DNA of 20,466 bases, from IMG/VR virus record IMGVR_UViG_3300032047_001675, positions 1-20,466 of that record. One strand, given 5' to 3'. The notes below the pieces were generated by a model. The model searched no databases and had not been told where the DNA came from. It saw only the letters and a list, made by a program, of their open reading frames with translations. Source of the stretch: a virus. Each line of letters starts with the position of its first letter. Position 1 is the first letter of the stretch. Positions 7,064-20,466 of the stretch are shown piece by piece. The position numbers were made by a program, and so were the translations under genes.

Positions 7064-7360
7064 TTACACCTCATCTAATATAGATAAGAACTCACTCTCT
7101 CTATAAATGTTATATGTTTTACCACCATTTTTGTGTTTGAATCCAGTTCCATCTAATAGAACTATATCACCCACCTTTGTACTCATAGGGATAATCTCAC
7201 CTGAATGAGTAAATAATCCACTACCAACGGCTACTACTGTACCCATCATTGTAGTTTCTGAACCTGATGGTTTGTATAAACCACCCTTAGTTTTTTCATC
7301 GTTTCTTTTTAGTATCTCTACTACTACTCTATCCCCTAAAGGTCTATAATTGTATTCCAT
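7064..7360 (-). CDS. GroES-like co-chaperonin (gp31 analogue)
   Basis: A 98-residue Cpn10-family protein. It begins with the canonical RPLGDRVVVE (6-15), has TKGGLYKPSG (24-33) in the mobile-loop position, then GTVVAVGSG (40-48), and VGDIVLLDGTGF (63-74) in place of the usual V-K-V-G-D-x-V-L-F. Length equals that of host GroES. Family role: it caps the host GroEL ring. T4 gp31 replaces GroES to fold the major capsid protein, and the same is inferred here. No GroEL is in the window. Its ATG lies 3 nt from the ClpP stop, so it is co-transcribed with clpP from the promoter at 8043-8074. Confidence 0.88.
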   Translation of the reverse strand: MEYNYRPLGDRVVVEILKRNDEKTKGGLYKPSGSETTMMGTVVAVGSGLFTHSGEIIPMSTKVGDIVLLDGTGFKHKNGGKTYNIYRESEFLSILDEV

Positions 7361-7363
7361 AAC

Positions 7364-8008
7364 TTAAATAATTTTATCTATAATTCCTAATTCTAATGCT
7401 TCTTCTGCCGATAAGAAGTAATCGGTTCTTTGATTTTCTTTCCAAAACTCTTTATCTTTTTTTGTAACTTCCGCCATAAGTGTATTACAATCATCTTCTA
7501 ATTGTTCTGCAAACTTAGCGTTAGATTTTACATCTTCTAACTTTCCAAAATTCATTGTTGATAATTGGTGAACCATAACCTTAGAATGTTTTGATGCGGC
7601 TCTAAGACCAGTTCCACAAGATAGTAATAATGCCGCAGCACTCATAGCTGAACCTCTACATACAATATTTGTAGTGATTCCTTCGTTATCCTTTATAGTT
7701 CTAATGTAATCTATTAGTGCTAATGTTTCTACTACATCTCCACCTGGTGAGTTTAATAAGATAGTTACTGATTTTAAATCTTTATTTATTTTTCTTAGTA
7801 ATCTAACTTTAGATATTGTATCAAATACCATTCCTTGTGATATCTCATCCTGTACTAAGATAATGTTTGATTCAATATCAATTCCATAATCAAACTCTCT
7901 AAACTCTTGGAAGTGTTTATCTCTTTCGGATGGTGTCTTTACATCATACTTTGGTTCTATCTGACTCTCAGTAGATGATGTTCTGCCTTCATTATATAAA
8001 TCGCTCAT
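7364..8008 (-). CDS. ClpP-like serine protease
   Basis: A 214-residue ClpP-fold protease. NSPGGDVVETLALIDYIR (86-103) is the oxyanion-loop block. The catalytic triad is visible as S123 (RGSAMSAAALLL), H147 (KVMVHQLS) and D196 (TDYFLSAEEALELG). Residues 1-45 form an extra polar N-terminal segment that may be a propeptide or an adaptor surface. ClpP peptidases need an AAA+ unfoldase; no ClpX/ClpA is seen here, so it probably uses the host unfoldase or acts on peptides. Phage ClpP proteins may also take part in capsid maturation, but that cannot be decided. It has its own promoter at 8043-8074 and is followed 3 nt later by the groES-like gene. Confidence 0.85.
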   Translation of the reverse strand: MSDLYNEGRTSSTESQIEPKYDVKTPSERDKHFQEFREFDYGIDIESNIILVQDEISQGMVFDTISKVRLLRKINKDLKSVTILLNSPGGDVVETLALIDYIRTIKDNEGITTNIVCRGSAMSAAALLLSCGTGLRAASKHSKVMVHQLSTMNFGKLEDVKSNAKFAEQLEDDCNTLMAEVTKKDKEFWKENQRTDYFLSAEEALELGIIDKII

Positions 8009-9331: not shown

Positions 9332-10231
9332 CTACTGAAGGTATTCTAAGATGGCCAATTCTTTGGCTTTAGATTCCACCATAATATCTACATTTAATCC
9401 ATAAGTATTAGGAACACTATTGATGTAATCTGAGTGTGCTTGAGGTTTCAGTTTCTCATTATTCTCATGTAAAGCTTTAGATTCTGAATAGTGAACTACA
9501 GGTACAATATCTTTAGGCCAGGTAGAAACTGCTAACTTCAGTGCTTCTTCCTCTGATAAATCTCCAGTACAAAATTTGTGGTGGTGATAATCGAATACAA
9601 TAGGAATACCAATACGTTCATGTATGTACATCAAATCTTTTACTGAGTACATAGATGCTTTATCATCGTTCTCTACAGTCAAACGAGTCTGAACTGATTC
9701 AGGTAACCTCTCAAAGTTCTTACAGAACCTATCCATAGCAGATTGTTTATCACCATACACACCATTACAATGTATATTAAGTTTGTTGTAAGGAGTACGA
9801 GATAACCCCATCATATCAAACACCTCACCATGTGTAGTAAGGTCTGTAATTGTATTTTCTACAACGTGCTCTTTGGGAGATACTAATACATTGAATGGGC
9901 CAGGATGTGATGTGATACGTTGCCCGTACTTCTTAGCAAGATGTCCAGCACCTGCCATAAGATTAGATATACGATGGTAATGAGGTAACTCTGATAAGTT
10001 GTACTCAGAAGCCCAAGGAAACAAATCAGAACTCAACCTAAAGAAGTTGATACCGTTACGATGATTCCATTTGATAATCTCCACTAAATCTCTAGCGTTT
10101 TGAATTCCTAACTCAGATGCGTAAGGAATACCTTTTTCTAAAAAGGTTTTTTTAATCATACTACGATTGGTAGTAATTTTGGGTTTCTGTTTACCCAATG
10201 TCATGTTGATACACGCATACCCTAAATTCAT
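9332..10231 (-). CDS. uvdE: UV-damage endonuclease, UvdE/UVDE family
   Basis: A 299-residue TIM-barrel endonuclease. It starts MNLGYACINMTL (the canonical LGYA/C-x-N start), followed by NGINFFRLSSDLFPWAS (60-76, the R-x-S-S-x-x-x-P block), ITSHPGPFNVLVSP (the H-P-x-x-x motif), the H-x-x-G-V-Y-G-D-K segment near 154-162, LTVENDD, and FDYHHHKF with metal-ligand histidines. UvdE nicks DNA 5' to UV photoproducts and starts a repair route independent of UvrABC. Length is full for the family. It has its own composite promoter (10262-10319), overlapped by the upstream terminator. Role inferred: repair of UV-damaged phage DNA, as T4 DenV does by other chemistry. Known in some phages of sunlit waters. 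Confidence 0.92.
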   Translation of the reverse strand: MNLGYACINMTLGKQKPKITTNRSMIKKTFLEKGIPYASELGIQNARDLVEIIKWNHRNGINFFRLSSDLFPWASEYNLSELPHYHRISNLMAGAGHLAKKYGQRITSHPGPFNVLVSPKEHVVENTITDLTTHGEVFDMMGLSRTPYNKLNIHCNGVYGDKQSAMDRFCKNFERLPESVQTRLTVENDDKASMYSVKDLMYIHERIGIPIVFDYHHHKFCTGDLSEEEALKLAVSTWPKDIVPVVHYSESKALHENNEKLKPQAHSDYINSVPNTYGLNVDIMVESKAKELAILEYLQ

Positions 10232-10517: not shown

Positions 10518-10874
10518 TTACTTAACAGTTACTTCAACAATTTTTGTTTTCTTTTCTTCCACTTTAGGAATCGATACAGATAAAATACCATCCTTTACTT
10601 TAGCTGAAGTTTTAGATACATCCCAATCTTCACTAATGTTATACTTTTTATTAAAAGTTCTTGTTTCATTCTCTCCTTTAATAGAAAGAACTGTATCTTC
10701 TACTTTTACATTAATGTCTTTTTTGGATAATCCTGGCACTTCAAACTCCATTGTTAGTACATCATCCTTTACTTCCATAGAACGACTCGGGTCTACAGTT
10801 GGTTTATTGAAATGATTCCTAAGTACAAGTTCATCTAATAGATTCCATGCTCCGTTGCTCATTGATATATTCAT
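10518..10874 (-). CDS. Small heat-shock protein, Hsp20/alpha-crystallin family
   Basis: A 118-residue protein whose alpha-crystallin domain spans about 33-118. VKDDVLTMEFEVPGLSKKDI (35-54), VKVEDTVLSIKGE (61-73) and KVKDGILSVSIPKVE (96-110) match the family strands, including the G-x-L-x-V-x-x-P signature. The N-terminal arm is short and there is no classic C-terminal I-x-I tail. Role: an ATP-independent holdase that keeps unfolding proteins soluble. T4-like cyanophages also carry hsp20. A strong Shine-Dalgarno (AAAAAAGGAG) lies 5 nt before the ATG. Upstream are a candidate promoter (10901-10932) and two TGACA/TGTCA palindromes (10954-10997), so it probably has its own regulation. Confidence 0.88.
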   Translation of the reverse strand: MNISMSNGAWNLLDELVLRNHFNKPTVDPSRSMEVKDDVLTMEFEVPGLSKKDINVKVEDTVLSIKGENETRTFNKKYNISEDWDVSKTSAKVKDGILSVSIPKVEEKKTKIVEVTVK

Positions 10875-14018: not shown

Positions 14019-15302
14019 TTAAAATGGGTTAGAGATATCAACTTCTTCAGTTGAATCTCCTTCCACGTTGAATAAATCTTCCTCATCAGTAGAACCAACG
14101 TATTTCTGAACGAATTGTTTAACGTAAGTTCTCTCTGATTGAGCTCCACCAGCATCATCGAACAATGGGTAGATAGTAATTTCAGCGGCCTCAGCCAGAT
14201 TGAATCCATCATAAAGTAGTGAACCAATCTCAACAGCCGTTCTGGTCGATAGTGAGTTTGAAAGAGTTGGAACTTCTTTCTTAACATCGTTTCTAGTCAT
14301 CGAAGTAATCTTAGCAACATTACCTAAGATAGTTGAATCAACTGAAGGATACATCATCTGAAGTAAATCAGTTTCTTCATCAGAAGTTAGAGTATCCATT
14401 TCGATGATTGTAAATCTATCAATAATCGCTCTATCCAATTGTCTAGTCGATGTGTACTCATTACCGATGTTAGCCGATGCGATGAAGGAAACACCTTCAG
14501 CAACTTTAACAACAGGTGAATCAGATGCCTCATCTAATCTAAGGTATCTCTGTCCACTATCTAAAACAGTCATTAGAATGTTGTGAGCCTCAGGGTGAGC
14601 TCTGGATATCTCATCTAATACAATTACAGTATTTGGAGTTTGGATAGCCTTCACAAATGGTGAAGGAGAAAACACAGTACCTTTTTTGGTATCGAACTGA
14701 GTGTTACCGATTAAGGTAGCTCTCGGGTCTTGTGTAGAACCTAAGTTGAAGATTTCCATAGTGTAACCTTCAATTGAATTGGCCGCCGCTTTAGCTGCCA
14801 TAGTTTTACCACAACCAGCCGGTCCGGTCATCATAATATTTTTACCTCTCAGAATGTTTCTGATTAGGTACTTCCACTTTAGTGGATTCATAAACAACAT
14901 CTGAGGTTTTAATCCTTCAGATTCATTGTGAATAAACTTTAGGAAATCTTCTTCCATTGGTTTCTCAGCAACTTCCATAGTTGGTTTTTGTTTTAGTTGG
15001 TATTGTTCCAACCCACCATTCGGTTTGTTGAAGTTTGTTACAGGGTCAGAACCATTGAACTTCTCACCAGGTACTCTGTTGAACTCAACAGAACCATTGG
15101 TAAGATTACCTTTGATTCTTGCTTTGATACAATACTTAGAAGGATTGTTAGCTGCCGATATACACCTTTTATATATTGATGTACCAACTTCATTTAATTG
15201 AGGAACTAAGAACTCAGTTCCTGCGGAATCGATAAGGATAATCTCCTTATTCTCGTTTTTCTTTGATTGAAGGAAAACACTTCTTTGACTTTTATTACTC
15301 AT
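14019..15302 (-). CDS. MoxR/CobS-type AAA+ ATPase
   Basis: A 427-residue protein. Residues 1-110 are a non-conserved N-terminal region with beta character. The AAA+ core follows: Walker A GPAGCGKT (160-167), Walker B VIVLDEISRAHPEAH (226-240), sensor 1 ASANIGNEY (276-284) and arginine-finger region DRAIIDRF (290-297). The E-I-S-R-A-x-P form is typical of MoxR/CbbQ/CobS ATPases, which work with VWA-domain partners. T4-like cyanophages carry a gene annotated cobS of this type. Its partner is probably the VWA protein encoded directly upstream. It has its own composite promoter at 15346-15403 and a terminator after it. Cobalt insertion into corrinoids is unlikely without the rest of the pathway; protein remodelling is the better guess. 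Confidence 0.85.
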   Translation of the reverse strand: MSNKSQRSVFLQSKKNENKEIILIDSAGTEFLVPQLNEVGTSIYKRCISAANNPSKYCIKARIKGNLTNGSVEFNRVPGEKFNGSDPVTNFNKPNGGLEQYQLKQKPTMEVAEKPMEEDFLKFIHNESEGLKPQMLFMNPLKWKYLIRNILRGKNIMMTGPAGCGKTMAAKAAANSIEGYTMEIFNLGSTQDPRATLIGNTQFDTKKGTVFSPSPFVKAIQTPNTVIVLDEISRAHPEAHNILMTVLDSGQRYLRLDEASDSPVVKVAEGVSFIASANIGNEYTSTRQLDRAIIDRFTIIEMDTLTSDEETDLLQMMYPSVDSTILGNVAKITSMTRNDVKKEVPTLSNSLSTRTAVEIGSLLYDGFNLAEAAEITIYPLFDDAGGAQSERTYVKQFVQKYVGSTDEEDLFNVEGDSTEEVDISNPF

Positions 15303-15345
15303 ATAATTTAATTTTTAGTTTTTACTCTTATTAATTATTACTCTA

Positions 15346-15403
15346 CTAAAGTACGACTTTTATTTTACAATTCCAAATTTCTAATGTTAAGAAATTGTTA
15401 AAT
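15346..15403 (-). promoter_or_regulatory. Composite promoter of the AAA+ gene
   Basis: Minus strand: ATTTAACAATTTCTTAACAT (15403-15384), 6 nt, TTTG (15377-15374), 20 nt, TACTTTAG (15353-15346). It lies between the VWA stop and the AAA+ ATG. The following leader GTAATAATTAATAAGAG is shared, with one or two changes, with the VWA and 65-residue genes. No Shine-Dalgarno precedes the ATG. Confidence 0.78.
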
Positions 15404-15406
15404 CTT

Positions 15407-17554
15407 TTACTGAAACAATTTGTTTAATGTTTTAGTTAACGCCATCAGATTCGTACAATCTACTGATGTCGCTGATTTACCATACATTCTTTTGAACTGG
15501 TCGATACCACCTTCGTAACCATCGTACACAAAGTATGAAAGAACCTTAACTCCTGCTTGTTGGATTTTCTTAACCTGAGCTGCCGTATGTTCAACAGCCG
15601 CAGTTCCACCGTAATCGATATCTCTGTTAGAGAAACCTGGCCATCCATCTGAAAAATTGATGAAGTAAGAATCAACACCTTTGTTAGTTTTGGTGATATC
15701 ATCTAAAACAGTTTCAAAACATAAACCTTCAGGAGTAGTTCCACAAGGATTAAGATATTTAAATAATTGTTGAATCTTAGAGAACTTATCTTTTCTACTA
15801 TCGTAAGCTATCAACATTAGTGGTTGTGTAGTCCCATCATGTTGAATACTTCTGTAAGATATAACCACATCTAAATTAGAAGTCATCGAAGCGGCCTTAG
15901 CGATAGCAACTGCCGATGTTTGGGTTTGTTTCCACTTACCACCACCCATTGATGAACTAGCATCAATCGATATGTGAACTAAGGCTGGGTTATGTTTGTT
16001 AATTGTAATCTGGTCGAAGATTTGAGTATTACCCATTCCCAACTCATGTAACAATCTACCTGAGATTCTACCATTCTTCATTCTAGGATTAACCAAACTT
16101 CTTTCCTCATTTCTGAGTTTAAGTTTCTTACCCAATACAGTACCCAATACGATACCCTTTTGAATAGCTCTTTCGTTTCTTTCAGAACTCCAAGAGTAAT
16201 TAGATAACATACTAATCATATCAGAATCAACTAATTGTTTAGTGTAGTTTCTTACAACCATTACAGGAGTTTGTTTATCTTGTTTACCATACCATCTGTT
16301 GTTTTGGTAATCTTTACCAGCCAACTTTTCTTCGATACCACTCTTAACCAAAGTATCTAACTTCTTAGATTCACCTTTGGAAACTTTCTTCTTTTTGATA
16401 TCACCATTCTGAAAATTCTTTTGTTTCTCAATAGCGTTATCTAATTGTTTCTTTTGTCTACCTGATAGAGAACCATTACCTTCAGTAGTTTTGGTATCTG
16501 TGATTTGAGAATCAGAACCACTACCACCAGCTCCATTAGGATTGTAACCACCGTTACCTTTCTTTGGAGTATCTCCTTCAGCATCTCCTTTGGAATCATC
16601 TTTACCATCAGAACCATCTTTAGGTTTACCACCGTTACCTTCGGTGTTATCAGTACCATTGGTATCGGAATTATCTCCACCACCACCAGTTCCACTACCT
16701 TCTGATTGTTCATCATCAGATTCTCCATCACCACTATTTTGTTGGTTAGGTGATTGGATTGGTTTTTGTTCAGCTGGAAGTGAGTTCTCAACTACTTTGA
16801 AAATCTGTTCAGCCAACACCATAGAACCATTAGTATCTGTTATCATATCGATGTTTTTCAAATCCATAAGATTCCATACATTTCTCAATTGAGGAAGAGC
16901 ATCTAAATCTCTATTCTTATTAGTGATGTTTATGATTCTAAACATATAAGAAGCCCAATCCAACTCTCTGTACTCTGAGGATTGTAATCCCTTATCAACT
17001 ATCTTAGAGTTGAAGTATTTATCGTACATAGCGTGGTAGTAACCTTTGTAACCAGGTGATGTACTGTAAATGTAGTTATCGATTCTTCTATCTTCGATTA
17101 TGTTAAGTAAGTTCTTAACGATACCCCTAACATACTCTTTAGTTTCCCACTCATCTTTAGAGTGTTTTTCCATTAAGTGAGTGATGTAAGGAACACCAAC
17201 AATCAAATCGATGTTGTTGTTAATTGTATCTAATATACTGAAATCTGTTAACTTAATGTGAGAACCTTCATGCAGTGCCAACCCAACGGTTGAATCAAAA
17301 TCTTTATCATCCATCTTAGCTGATATCACAACCGAATTACCATCAGTATAAGAATCAATACCCCTTACATCAAATGTAACAGGTATATTATCATTAGTAA
17401 CGATGTTAACAAAGTTACCGATAGATTTCTTATAAGAGGCAAGTGCCATCAGATTTGAATGTTTAGATTCTATAACATTCAACCCATCATCTACATCATC
17501 GAACAGGTTATCTTTCAACCAGAACGAACTATATTTTGTATTATCTCTATTCAT
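15407..17554 (-). CDS. HExxH + VWA-domain protein (CobT-like partner of the AAA+ ATPase)
   Basis: A 715-residue protein in three parts. Residues 1-260 are helical, with a zinc-metallopeptidase-like HEGSH (95-99) and NIIEDRRID (151-159), which could supply a third ligand, as in VWA-linked metallopeptidase domains. Residues 262-365 form a low-complexity Gly/Ser/Asp/Asn linker. Residues 525-715 are a VWA domain with a complete MIDAS: DASSS (531-535), a Thr at 606/607 and D636 in FSDG. Residues 430-515 join linker and VWA. The layout matches CobT-like proteins paired with MoxR/CobS ATPases. Role inferred: metal-dependent protein remodelling or proteolysis together with the AAA+ ATPase. It has its own composite promoter. 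Confidence 0.82.
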   Translation of the reverse strand: MNRDNTKYSSFWLKDNLFDDVDDGLNVIESKHSNLMALASYKKSIGNFVNIVTNDNIPVTFDVRGIDSYTDGNSVVISAKMDDKDFDSTVGLALHEGSHIKLTDFSILDTINNNIDLIVGVPYITHLMEKHSKDEWETKEYVRGIVKNLLNIIEDRRIDNYIYSTSPGYKGYYHAMYDKYFNSKIVDKGLQSSEYRELDWASYMFRIINITNKNRDLDALPQLRNVWNLMDLKNIDMITDTNGSMVLAEQIFKVVENSLPAEQKPIQSPNQQNSGDGESDDEQSEGSGTGGGGDNSDTNGTDNTEGNGGKPKDGSDGKDDSKGDAEGDTPKKGNGGYNPNGAGGSGSDSQITDTKTTEGNGSLSGRQKKQLDNAIEKQKNFQNGDIKKKKVSKGESKKLDTLVKSGIEEKLAGKDYQNNRWYGKQDKQTPVMVVRNYTKQLVDSDMISMLSNYSWSSERNERAIQKGIVLGTVLGKKLKLRNEERSLVNPRMKNGRISGRLLHELGMGNTQIFDQITINKHNPALVHISIDASSSMGGGKWKQTQTSAVAIAKAASMTSNLDVVISYRSIQHDGTTQPLMLIAYDSRKDKFSKIQQLFKYLNPCGTTPEGLCFETVLDDITKTNKGVDSYFINFSDGWPGFSNRDIDYGGTAAVEHTAAQVKKIQQAGVKVLSYFVYDGYEGGIDQFKRMYGKSATSVDCTNLMALTKTLNKLFQ

Positions 17555-17584
17555 ATATTTTTACTCTTATCAATTATTACTATA

Positions 17585-17660
17585 CTAAAGTAGTGAATTT
17601 TTTCCACATAAACAAGCATTTTATGTTAAATTTTTGTTAAAGTTATTAACAAGTTATTAA
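17585..17660 (-). promoter_or_regulatory. Composite promoter of the VWA gene with extended repeat array
   Basis: Minus strand: TTAACA-N5-TTAACAT (17640-17623), 6 nt, CTTG (17616-17613), 20 nt, TACTTTAG (17592-17585). Upstream are two more related hexamers, TTAATA at 17660-17655 and 17649-17644, within a tandem 11-nt repeat TTGTTAATAAC. That gives four hexamers with offsets of 11, 9 and 11. The array reaches the stop codon of the 65-residue gene. The N5 of this copy differs from the other three, which shows that only the hexamers and spacing are conserved. Confidence 0.75.
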
Positions 17661-17663
17661 CAA

Positions 17664-17861
17664 TTAAAGTAATCCTTTTAGTAGTTTCTTATAATCTATG
17701 GATAGTAAACCCATACCACCTATCATTAAACCCATAACGGCGAACACTATTTCGTTAAGAACCGCCTCAAACTGAATAAGGTTTTGTAGTGTTCCTTTCA
17801 TTGTTAAATAACACGCAGTAAACCCTACTACTGTTAATAAAATTGCTTGGTAATTTTTCAT
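17664..17861 (-). CDS. Small two-helix membrane protein
   Basis: A 65-residue protein with hydrophobic segments at about 5-22 (QAILLTVVGFTACYLTM) and 36-56 (EIVFAVMGLMIGGMGLLSI), separated by a short polar loop and ending in a basic tail (DYKKLLKGLL). This is the layout of a small holin or inner-membrane accessory protein, but holin-like topology alone is weak evidence and no lysis gene is next to it. It has its own composite promoter and is followed by the VWA gene, which also has one, so the two may act together at the membrane. Confidence 0.7.
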   Translation of the reverse strand: MKNYQAILLTVVGFTACYLTMKGTLQNLIQFEAVLNEIVFAVMGLMIGGMGLLSIDYKKLLKGLL

Positions 17862-17889
17862 ATTATATCTCTTATTAATTATTACAGTA

Positions 17890-17947
17890 CTAAAGTACGA
17901 AATAATTTCGATATATCCAAGCCGCCAATGTTAAGAAATTGTTAAAT
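17890..17947 (-). promoter_or_regulatory. Composite promoter of the 65-residue membrane protein gene
   Basis: Minus strand: ATTTAACAATTTCTTAACAT (17947-17928), 6 nt, CTTG (17921-17918), 20 nt, TACTTTAG (17897-17890). The TAA stop of the dehydratase gene lies inside the first TTAACA. The spacer contains the palindrome CGAAATTATTTCG. The leader after -7 reads GTAATAATTAATAAGAG, as for the AAA+ gene. Confidence 0.78.
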
Positions 17948-18847
17948 TTTTACTAATTCTTCTTTTAAGAATTCGTGAAGTGTTTTCGTAGTTTCGTTAT
18001 ATGAGTGTAGCCTATACTTTCTGTCGTGTCCTAATCTATCTTCTACGAATTCAAACTTAGGAGTTATACCTAATATATCACCAATGGTGTTTATTATATC
18101 TATGTTAGTTGTTGTGAAATCACTACCTATATGATAGATTTCATTTACATCACCTTCTAACACTATATCCAATATAGATTTGACATTATCCTCAACCCAT
18201 ATCCACTCTCTCATTTGTTTACCATCACCATAAACAGGTATAGTAATATCATTCTTAACATTGTGAATAATCTTAGGAATAAACTTTTCTTTGTGTTGTC
18301 GTACACCAAAGTTGTTACAAGTTCTTGTAATGTTATATGGTAATCCAAACGTAGTAGCACAACTCTGTACTAATAAATCAGCAGCTGCTTTAGTAGATGA
18401 GTAATAAGATGATGGTATTAACCTATCATATGGATATGATGGGGCATTATGATTATCAAGCTTTTCTAAATCCCCATAAACCTCATCTGTAGATATTTGA
18501 ACAAACCTTTTTAGCTTGGGATTCTGCCTTGCACATTCTAATAAATTAAATGTACCTTCTACATTAGTTCTTACAAATGGCCTACCATCTGCAATTGAAT
18601 TATCAACGTGAGATTCAGCAGCAAAGTTTACTAAGTAATCATACTCACCTAAATCTGATGGTGTAACATCACATATATCTCTTATTAAGGTTTGAACTAA
18701 TAATGGATTTGATTTAGGCATTCTATCATAATCACCAGCATATGTTAGTAAATCAACTACCATAACTTCATGTCCATTTTCTACACAATGATGTACAAAA
18801 GATGAACCTATAAAACCTAAACCACCTGTAACTACTATTCTATTCAT
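17942..18847 (-). CDS. dTDP-glucose 4,6-dehydratase-like SDR enzyme
   Basis: A 301-residue extended short-chain dehydrogenase of the RmlB type. It has the NAD-binding GGLGFIGSSF (8-17), the RmlB-typical NFAAESHVDNSI (74-85), the catalytic STDEVYG (119-125), YSSTK with Y149 and K153, and the RTCNNFGVRQHKEKFIP segment. D121-E122 are the acid/base residues expected for dehydration of dTDP-glucose to the 4-keto-6-deoxy sugar. It is slightly shorter than bacterial RmlB (about 350 aa). The start overlaps the thioesterase stop by 1 nt (TAATG). Role inferred: a nucleotide sugar for glycosylating host surface, virion or DNA. No RmlA, C or D is in the window, so it may feed or divert a host pathway. 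Confidence 0.85.
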   Translation of the reverse strand: MNRIVVTGGLGFIGSSFVHHCVENGHEVMVVDLLTYAGDYDRMPKSNPLLVQTLIRDICDVTPSDLGEYDYLVNFAAESHVDNSIADGRPFVRTNVEGTFNLLECARQNPKLKRFVQISTDEVYGDLEKLDNHNAPSYPYDRLIPSSYYSSTKAAADLLVQSCATTFGLPYNITRTCNNFGVRQHKEKFIPKIIHNVKNDITIPVYGDGKQMREWIWVEDNVKSILDIVLEGDVNEIYHIGSDFTTTNIDIINTIGDILGITPKFEFVEDRLGHDRKYRLHSYNETTKTLHEFLKEELVKI

Positions 18848-19233
18848 TAATCTAATATTTTATTTTTAACTCTATCTGATATTGGAATTGGGTCTCCCAT
18901 CTCATCTATCCTAACAAATGTTATGTTTGTTCTTAGGATTAAATTTTGTTTACCATTGTAAACATTATGAGAACGAGCTTCCAATATTAATCTTATTGAT
19001 GAACCACCTACCGATTCTACATCCCCATATATCTTTAGAAGTTGTCCTTCTCTCGCAGGTTTATTGAATATACATTTATCAATTGCTTTAGTTACCATAC
19101 GAGGTGTATCACAAAACTCAGCGGCGAATCCAGCGGCCGCAGCATCTAACCATGCTAATAGTTTACCACCAAACAGATTTCCATGAAACCCTAAATCGGA
19201 TTTCTTAATTGGATGTTGTGTTATATACTTCAT
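18847..19233 (-). CDS. Acyl-CoA thioesterase, hotdog fold (YciA/BFIT-like)
   Basis: A 128-residue protein with the acyl-CoA hydrolase signature: N-terminal DLGFHGNLFGGKLLAWLDAA (13-32), including the N-x-x-G-G helix start and D30, the expected catalytic acid, followed by the long hotdog helix (AAAGFAAEF). Later strands LKIYGDVESVGGSSIRLILE and RTNITFVRID fit the fold. Family role: hydrolysis of acyl-CoA thioesters in the cytoplasm. The start overlaps the nucleosidase gene by 29 nt, an unusually long overlap, but no later in-frame ATG would preserve the conserved N-terminus. A thioesterase in a phage is unusual. Possible targets are host lipid or acyl-CoA pools. Confidence 0.8.
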   Translation of the reverse strand: MKYITQHPIKKSDLGFHGNLFGGKLLAWLDAAAAGFAAEFCDTPRMVTKAIDKCIFNKPAREGQLLKIYGDVESVGGSSIRLILEARSHNVYNGKQNLILRTNITFVRIDEMGDPIPISDRVKNKILD

Positions 19234-19771
19234 CTAATATTTTTTTAAATTCTAAGATACCATCTGATACATTCTGTTCCCAATCGTTTGGGGACTTTTC
19301 ATCAGCGTTATCTGTAATGTATTTGTAACATTTAAATGGGATGTTCCATTTATCACATATTTTGGCAATACAAAAAGCCTCCATATCAAATACATCAATA
19401 CCTTCATATTCTTTTTTGTTTATTACAAATGAATCACCTGAACCCACAACTAACGAATCTATAAAATGAGCATCACCTAATACACTTGCAGTTTTATCAA
19501 ATGGTGTTGTACCTCTCGGAAATCCTAATGGTGATACATCCATATCTCTTTGTACGAATCTACCACACTCTACTAACTCACCGATTGGTAAATCTCTACT
19601 ACCAGCAGTTCCGTAGTTGATTACTAATTTAGGGAATCCATATATCATAAAATGACGAGTTAGTTCAAATGTTGAATTTACTTTACCAACACCTGTATAT
19701 AAAACATTATAATCATTTAATTGATTATTTGTTTCTTGTTCTAATGCACATACAATTAAAGTATCTATCAT
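19205..19771 (-). CDS. 5'-methylthioadenosine/S-adenosylhomocysteine nucleosidase-like protein
   Basis: A 188-residue member of the purine nucleoside phosphorylase/MTAN superfamily. TGVGKVNS (26-33), INYGTAGSRDLPIG (51-64), GSGDSFVIN (110-118), DMEAFCIAKIC (129-139) and ITDNAD (152-157) match E. coli MTAN blocks. E131 and D154 correspond to the ribose-binding Glu174 and catalytic Asp197; E11 or E13 is the candidate for Glu12. It is about 45 residues shorter than E. coli MTAN, so a strand or loop is trimmed. Expected reaction: hydrolysis of MTA or SAH to adenine plus the thioribose or ribosyl-homocysteine. The start overlaps the APRT stop by 4 nt. A related nucleosidase or phosphorylase specificity cannot be excluded. 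Confidence 0.8.
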   Translation of the reverse strand: MIDTLIVCALEQETNNQLNDYNVLYTGVGKVNSTFELTRHFMIYGFPKLVINYGTAGSRDLPIGELVECGRFVQRDMDVSPLGFPRGTTPFDKTASVLGDAHFIDSLVVGSGDSFVINKKEYEGIDVFDMEAFCIAKICDKWNIPFKCYKYITDNADEKSPNDWEQNVSDGILEFKKILDEVYNTTSN

Positions 19772-20271
19772 TTAATCAAACATTTAATTGATTCATCCCC
19801 TTTGTAAATTCCTATATCTAACAAACATAATCTATCAACAACATCTAATCCAACCATTTCACATAGGTTAGATGCCGCTTCCATAGTACCGCCAGTTGCT
19901 AATACATCATCAACAACAACACAAGTACCTAAATCATGTTGAGGTATATATGCCATTTCTAATTCATCACTACCATACTCCAACCCATATTGAACAAAAA
20001 ACTTTTTGTTGTTTGGTAACTTACCCCTCTTTCTTACTATTCGTATTCCACCACCAAATTGATAACTTAATGCAGATGCGAATAAAAACCCTCTACTCTC
20101 AATACCTACCCAATAGGTAGGAACTTTATTTATAAGTTGCCCCATTTCTAATATGGCGTTTTTAAAAACAGAACTCTCAGCCAACAATGGTTGAATATCC
20201 TTATACTGAATTCCTTTTACAGGAAAGTCATCTACGTTATTTATGTAATTATTATAATCCATTACTTCCAT
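19768..20271 (-). CDS. apt: Adenine phosphoribosyltransferase
   Basis: A 167-residue APRT. DFPVKGIQYKDIQPLL (15-30), GIESRGFLFASALSY (56-70), VRKRGKLP (79-86), YGLEYGSDELE (95-105) and the PRPP-binding loop CVVVDDVLATGGTMEAA (117-133) are all family hallmarks. Reaction: adenine + PRPP to AMP + pyrophosphate. It lies between metK and the nucleosidase gene, with a 10-nt overlap with metK if the first ATG (20271) is used, or a 1-nt TAATG overlap if the second ATG (20262, MDYNN) is used; the latter is the commoner junction type in this genome. The neighbouring nucleosidase would produce its substrate, adenine. Confidence 0.9.
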   Translation of the reverse strand: MEVMDYNNYINNVDDFPVKGIQYKDIQPLLAESSVFKNAILEMGQLINKVPTYWVGIESRGFLFASALSYQFGGGIRIVRKRGKLPNNKKFFVQYGLEYGSDELEMAYIPQHDLGTCVVVDDVLATGGTMEAASNLCEMVGLDVVDRLCLLDIGIYKGDESIKCLIK

Positions 20272-20466
20272 TTAAAACCAGCACCCATATGTCCAAATGC
20301 CGCTGTATCTCCAAATATTGGTTGTTTAAGTTCTAAGAAATCTATAATACCTTTTGGTGATAAATCATAACCTTTAATCACTTCATGTTTACCATCAACA
20401 ATAGCACTTGCTTGAAGTGGTTGGTTATATCCAATTGCATAAGCAAGTTGAACTGTTACTTCTTTA
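20262..20466 (-). CDS. metK: S-adenosylmethionine synthetase, C-terminal end (runs off right edge)
   Basis: The frame enters from the right edge and ends at TAA (20264-20262), giving 67 residues. TVQLAYAIGYNQPLQ, LSPKGIIDFLELKQPIF and DTAAFGHMGAGFKW match the MetK C-terminal domain (E. coli Q-V-S-Y-A-I-G, L-x-P-x-G-L-I-x-x-L-D-L-x-x-P-I-Y and T-A-A-Y-G-H-F-G...W). The segment between the first two blocks is about ten residues shorter than in E. coli, and the protein ends soon after the Trp. Reaction: methionine + ATP to SAM. Most of the gene, including the ATP site, lies outside the window, so activity cannot be judged. It heads the apt-nucleosidase cassette. Confidence 0.85.
   Translation of the reverse strand, partial: KEVTVQLAYAIGYNQPLQASAIVDGKHEVIKGYDLSPKGIIDFLELKQPIFGDTAAFGHMGAGFKWK

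Follow-up and report, generated by a model that had tools for sequence, protein, structure and literature searches.

What do the two adjacent genes P0001 and P0002 do in the IMG/VR virus record IMGVR_UViG_3300032047_001675? The window (the whole stretch analysed, a virus record of 20,466 bases that is probably a fragment) encodes there a MoxR-type AAA+ ATPase (P0001) and a partner (P0002) that joins a metallopeptidase-like motif to a VWA domain, and the question raised by this locus is whether such a pair is a cobalt chelatase of the CobS/CobT kind or something else. We think that P0001 and P0002 are probably not a cobalt chelatase but a phage machine of the MoxR/VWA type for remodelling proteins, in which P0002 has a gluzincin-like metal site in its N-terminal domain, made up of HExxH and a glutamate farther downstream. 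We favour this because of the invariance of the metal site, the confident model of the N-terminal domain, the fold match to NorD, the gene linkage, and the precedents of the virus ATV and of jumbo phages. Iyer et al. (2021, PMC7824862) have already predicted this kind of pair in certain jumbo phages; the proposal of an ATP-driven remodelling or protease complex, made in a sequence-only reading of this DNA, holds as regards an AAA+/VWA pair with a conserved metal-site motif, but is not new for phages. What is added here is that the metal site has been tested across the family, that cellular CobT is seen to lack HExxH, and that there is a strong link to cyanophage cobS. No open-access paper was found that joins the jumbo-phage proposal, cyanophage cobS and the metal site.

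As far as the sequences go, the ATPase and the MIDAS are intact, the HExxH...NxxED motifs are invariant and the two genes are strongly linked. Both open reading frames lie where the sequence-only reading had placed them. The best domain match of P0001 is Pfam AAA_5 (5.5e-18). Besides its Walker motifs (Table 1) it carries N278, R287, R296 and R354, and so has an AAA+ core with Walker A and B, sensor and arginine residues; an alignment of 35 sequences shows no change at the key catalytic positions. Its PDB sequence matches are led by Midasin (1.9e-25), followed by NorQ (2.1e-8) and CbbQ, with CobS at 9.8e-6. It stays far below the curated CobS model TIGR01650 (26.3 bits, cut-off 558.55) and falls outside the CobS side of a tree of AAA sequences, which was midpoint-rooted, the rooting being too weak for arguing the direction of descent. 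The earlier description "MoxR/CobS-type" is correct in its first half, with NorQ and CbbQ among the PDB matches, but by the curated model not in its second (26 versus 559 bits).

P0002 indeed contains everything that the sequence-only reading had seen in it, that is HEGSH and NIIEDRRID, a low-complexity linker (about 95 residues) and a complete MIDAS (D531, S533, S535, T607 and D636, all invariant in 58 aligned sequences). The linker is far shorter in phage LR756508, so that a linker of this length is not required. No Pfam or NCBIfam model matches P0002, including the curated CobT models TIGR01651 and PF11775, and a PDB sequence search gave no credible relative; there are weak matches to PHROG families, among which one bears the name "cobalamin biosynthesis protein" (8.9e-8).

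The family is associated with viruses: one scan of viral contigs gave 380 relatives (the best 80 were kept), whereas prokaryotic genomes, scanned with a single one for each species, yielded only two cellular matches, both on contigs of metagenome-assembled genomes (MAGs). These two contigs, Nitrosopelagicus and Wolfebacteria, are 15 and 11 kb long and possibly misbinned virus. H95, E96, H99, N151, E154, D155, I158 and D159 are identical in all 58 aligned non-redundant family proteins, and the motif is kept by every relative long enough to span the region; its lack in relatives, named beforehand as what would count against the idea, was not observed. Conservation reaches further. Ten divergent motif-bearing proteins were aligned (from the window, LR756508, Microcystis phage Mel-JY01, cyanophage S-PM2, Ochrobactrum phage OC, Microcystis phage Mae-Yong1326-1, Bacteroides phage BS162P1, a phage-plasmid-like E. 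coli plasmid, halovirus HCTV-2 and the Wolfebacteria MAG contig), and within their first 300 residues eight columns are identical (H95, E96, H99, N151, E154, D155, I158 and G168), most of which belong to the metal-site motifs. Profile comparisons of the N-terminal domains gave probabilities of 97% (window with BS162P1), 98% (cyanophage with Ochrobactrum OC) and 84% (window with cyanophage).

The AAA gene lies inside the fetched flank in 44 of the 58 non-redundant loci; when the other 14 records were searched whole, three had it farther off and most of the rest were short fragments. The AAA and VWA genes stand side by side in LR756508 and about 13 kb apart in Mel-JY01. For the AAA genes of Staphylococcus phage 812h1, crAss-like cr10_1 and Mycobacterium Silverleaf, no motif-bearing VWA partner was found among the translated neighbours.

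In the AlphaFold2 model of the N-terminal domain, HExxH lies on one helix (52-71) and E123, which is E154 of the full protein, on a second (104-134), both confidently predicted; sequence and predicted helices thus agree on an HExxH helix followed by a glutamate on another helix. This combination is the classical signature of zinc proteases. The putative zinc site is supported by conservation and helix placement rather than by measured geometry. The full-length model (pLDDT 72) has as its best PDB fold match the VWA domain of NorD in complex with NorQ (3.5e-7), and MIDAS domains of Midasin match too. Compared with viral predicted structures, the N-terminal domain has among its top matches proteins named CobT, VWFA and cobalamin biosynthesis protein.

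The pair most likely uses ATP to remodel and cleave proteins, perhaps in the assembly of virions. By analogy with NorQD, P0001 would form a hexamer in which the VWA domain of P0002 docks, and ATP hydrolysis would twist and pull the substrate by way of the VWA domain and the linker. The tethered N-terminal domain may bind zinc and either cut or hold the remodelled protein, and the most plausible substrate would be a protein of the phage itself, acted on while virions are being assembled, or failing that one of the host.

Several points weigh against this. Foldseek found no significant solved zincin for the N-terminal domain, PprI coming first (E 0.88) and myroilysin ninth (E 5.0), both of which we take to be zinc metallopeptidase-type proteins. 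No report of protease activity, zinc content or a substrate was found for any family member. Metal ligands are lost in some relatives, gp41 of ICP2 being without the glutamate and the proteins of Pseudomonas ZY21 and Thermus P23-45 without HExxH, so that in some phages the pair can function without the site; these three partners, lacking some or all ligands, keep their AAA neighbour (loci L202:1967-3709, L204:1442-3526 and L119:5714-7405). Finally, 14 virion proteins of cyanophage S-CREM1 were identified by mass spectrometry, and the text names neither member of the pair among them, so that the pair is maybe not a virion component; the same paper names one S-CREM1 gene a MoxR ATPase and does not mention a VWA partner (PMC9964418).

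Could the metal site serve metal handling, and not proteolysis? The pair would then insert a metal cofactor as NorQD and CobST do, with HExxH and the glutamate carrying or sensing the metal. We find this unlikely, while recognising that the nearest structural relative of the P0002 VWA domain, NorD, together with NorQ inserts iron into nitric oxide reductase, and that the N-domain profile of the E. coli phage-plasmid and ZY21 type aligns with cellular CobT (probability 86%). The motifs are those of a zinc protease, however, and cellular CobT inserts its metal without any HExxH: this motif is missing from CobT of Rhizobium, S. meliloti, Pandoraea and Caballeronia, which keep a stretch FDAVEQARVE or similar, and the solved cobaltochelatase CobT, also without HExxH, reads GDSMALRQARHNPRIH at the corresponding place. 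The window and cyanophage N-terminal domains do not align directly with cellular CobT (probabilities of 4% and below 1%), and are linked to it only through the phage-plasmid-type proteins. One of these, on E. coli plasmid pCUVET18-789.1 (locus L212:2956-6518), is a "porphyrin biosynthesis protein" with HEVAH...NALEDVFIE and a VWA domain, adjoining an AAA ATPase; CobT-like genes of the ZY21 kind are present in several hundred enterobacterial plasmids.

The published view of such viral genes is different. cobS is reported as a core gene of T4-like cyanophages and called a cobalamin biosynthesis gene (Sullivan et al. 2010, PMC3037559), a review of 2010 lists it among genes not found in cyanobacterial hosts (PMC2984593), and a study of 2026 treats viral cobS and cobT as B12 genes (PMC13390420); it is routinely counted as an auxiliary metabolic gene for vitamin B12. 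For Liu et al. (2021, PMC8651126), viral CobS and CobT join the CobN of the host to make up a full cobaltochelatase and increase vitamin B12, and the label "peptidase" of a cyanophage protein is a mistake. We regard this as quite improbable. The S-PM2 gene that is annotated "peptidase" (S-PM2p122) is the immediate upstream neighbour of CobS (S-PM2p123), and its product shows, in this order, GHEVGH, NVIEDARIE, KYPGL, a linker rich in glycine, asparagine and glutamate, and a VWA domain with DWSGS. Peptidase and CobS have equal tblastn record counts (365 Synechococcus, 61 Cyanophage and 24 Prochlorococcus records each). CobS follows the peptidase in 77 of 79 viral contigs, the other two ending less than 270 bases from the peptidase. 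HExxH is present in every one of the 79 cyanophage-type partners, and a non-redundant set of 40 shows no variation in H, E, H or in N, E, D. This intact metal site argues against the view that the peptidase label is mistaken. Cellular CobT (in the four bacteria and the solved structure) is without HExxH, whereas most viral partners keep it strictly.

It is true that cyanophage CobS is distantly CobS-like (PD_CobS, 70 bits) and in the AAA tree falls on the side of CobS (support 76-80), unlike the window AAA. But with 70.1 bits it remains far under the cut-off of the curated CobS model (559); neither S-PM2 nor Mel-JY01 has a match to the curated CobT model, which does recognise the Caulobacter positive control; and CobN was not found in S-PM2, P-SSM2 or Syn9, where host CobN could nevertheless serve. 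The suggestion of the sequence-only reading that cyanophage cobS may be part of such a system is largely borne out by the neighbouring HExxH/linker/VWA gene, the record counts and the linkage. In our opinion these data are best explained if P0001 and P0002 are of one kind with the cyanophage "cobS" and "peptidase" and with several further viral "CobST" pairs. With less than even confidence, we would go further and propose that many of the viral "CobST" pairs, among them the core cobS of cyanophages, are not genes for vitamin B12 but a viral ATP-driven metalloprotease system, cellular cobaltochelatase CobT being a derived relative that lost the metal site. The link to cyanophage cobS makes the B12 claim directly testable. 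If the partner of cobS is a metalloprotease-like VWA protein, this claim, and the ecology drawn from counts of viral cobS and cobT, need revision; marine phages would then have a dedicated ATP-driven machine whose substrate can be sought directly.

It is very improbable that the N-terminal domain is a scaffold which binds peptide or metal without catalysis (a pseudopeptidase), in a pure chaperone like RavA-ViaA. The P23-45, ZY21 and ICP2 relatives did lose ligands partly or fully with the gene pairing kept, but most lineages retain H, E, H, N, E and D near-completely over a very large divergence, including the presumed catalytic E96.

Table 1. Coordinates in the window of the gene pair, its motifs and domains, and the elements that accompany it.
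Feature	Position	Strand	Remark
Metallopeptidase-like/VWA partner gene (P0002, 715 amino acids)	15407..17554	-	
P0002 N-terminal domain, residues 32-262	16769..17461	-	AlphaFold2 pLDDT 92.9, pTM 0.89
HEGSH (HExxH motif), residues 95-99	17258..17272	-	
NIIEDRRID, residues 151-159; E154 candidate third metal ligand	17078..17104	-	
Low-complexity linker, residues 265-359, predicted disordered (pLDDT <50)	16478..16762	-	
VWA domain, about residues 520-714	15413..15997	-	fold closest to NorD VWA in NorQD complex
MIDAS DASSS, residues 531-535	15950..15964	-	site completed by T607 and D636
MoxR-type AAA+ ATPase gene (P0001, 427 amino acids)	14019..15302	-	
Walker A GPAGCGKT, residues 160-167	14802..14825	-	
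Walker B VIVLDE, residues 226-231	14610..14627	-	
Promoter-like motif upstream of AAA gene	15325..15353	-	
Promoter-like motif upstream of VWA gene	17564..17592	-	
Promoter-like motif upstream of 65-amino-acid gene	17869..17897	-	
Gene of 65 amino acids, perhaps a membrane protein	17664..17861	-	has the promoter motif of the pair

The promoter type that the two genes had been said to share is real: the promoter-like motif TACTTTAGTANNGTAATAATTRATAAGAG precedes each of them and a gene of 65 amino acids, three occurrences where none is expected by chance, and is absent elsewhere in the window. This small gene is near the pair in 15 of the 58 family loci; whether it is part of the pair's system is uncertain. 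The genes of the window have a T4-like phage look, the protein at 299-2278 being closest to a Mel-JY01 protein and to baseplate wedge proteins of Flavobacterium phage immuto, in which neither P0001 nor P0002 was matched at the sensitivity used. Pfam and NCBIfam scans recognised ClpP, GroES, Hsp20 and UvdE among the other genes. Those for GroES, ClpP and Hsp20 are close to the pair (7064-8008 and 10518-10874), and Hsp20 is near it in 35 of the 58 family loci, while in S-PM2 an Hsp20 gene likewise lies downstream of cobS; the UvdE-type ultraviolet endonuclease is at 9332-10231 (Pfam 1.1e-68). A run of genes at 17942-20466 comprises S-adenosylmethionine synthetase (partial, identified by eye), adenine phosphoribosyltransferase, MTA/SAH nucleosidase, acyl-CoA thioesterase and a dTDP-glucose dehydratase-like gene, the first three of which could be a set for recycling S-adenosylmethionine. 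As noted beforehand, no other cobalamin gene was recognised among the scanned proteins of this 20 kb fragment, from which their absence in the whole phage cannot be inferred.

How does the pair compare with known systems? Like CobS/CobT, it combines an AAA+ protein with a VWA/MIDAS partner, and there is the weak profile match of phage-plasmid-type N-terminal domains to CobT; unlike it, P0002 has HExxH, and both window proteins fall short of the curated models. Midasin/Rea1 is the best PDB sequence match of the AAA protein and also a fold match through its MIDAS, but is a single giant eukaryotic polypeptide of ribosome assembly, in which we know of no peptidase domain. NorQ/NorD resembles the pair in its MoxR-class AAA+ and in the VWA that is the best fold match; there the VWA sits docked in the ring of the AAA+ protein, and a linker is twisted and stretched as ATP is consumed, but this is a chaperone that inserts iron into nitric oxide reductase (PMC13036017). 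The interacting p618 and p892 of ATV are likewise a viral MoxR and VWA chaperone pair, implicated in tail development (PMC4124505), but of an archaeal virus and without a peptidase domain according to Iyer et al. (PMC7824862). The same authors describe in group 2.2 jumbo phages a MoxR AAA+ and a vWA cochaperone fused to an N-terminal metallopeptidase domain (ASV44729.1/ASV44728.2), proposed for virion assembly and processing; as far as this description allows a comparison, the likeness is in an N-terminal metallopeptidase motif fused to VWA beside MoxR, the window phage differing as a T4-like fragment. (Salicola phage SCTP-2, guessed as the source of ASV44729, was dropped, as its protein numbers appear not to reach that far.) Cyanophage CobS (phrog_249) and its "peptidase" (phrog_459), finally, are like P0001 and P0002 adjacent AAA+ and HExxH...NxxED/linker/VWA proteins, although the two partners are so little similar over their full length that the A2 profile does not detect the cyanophage protein.

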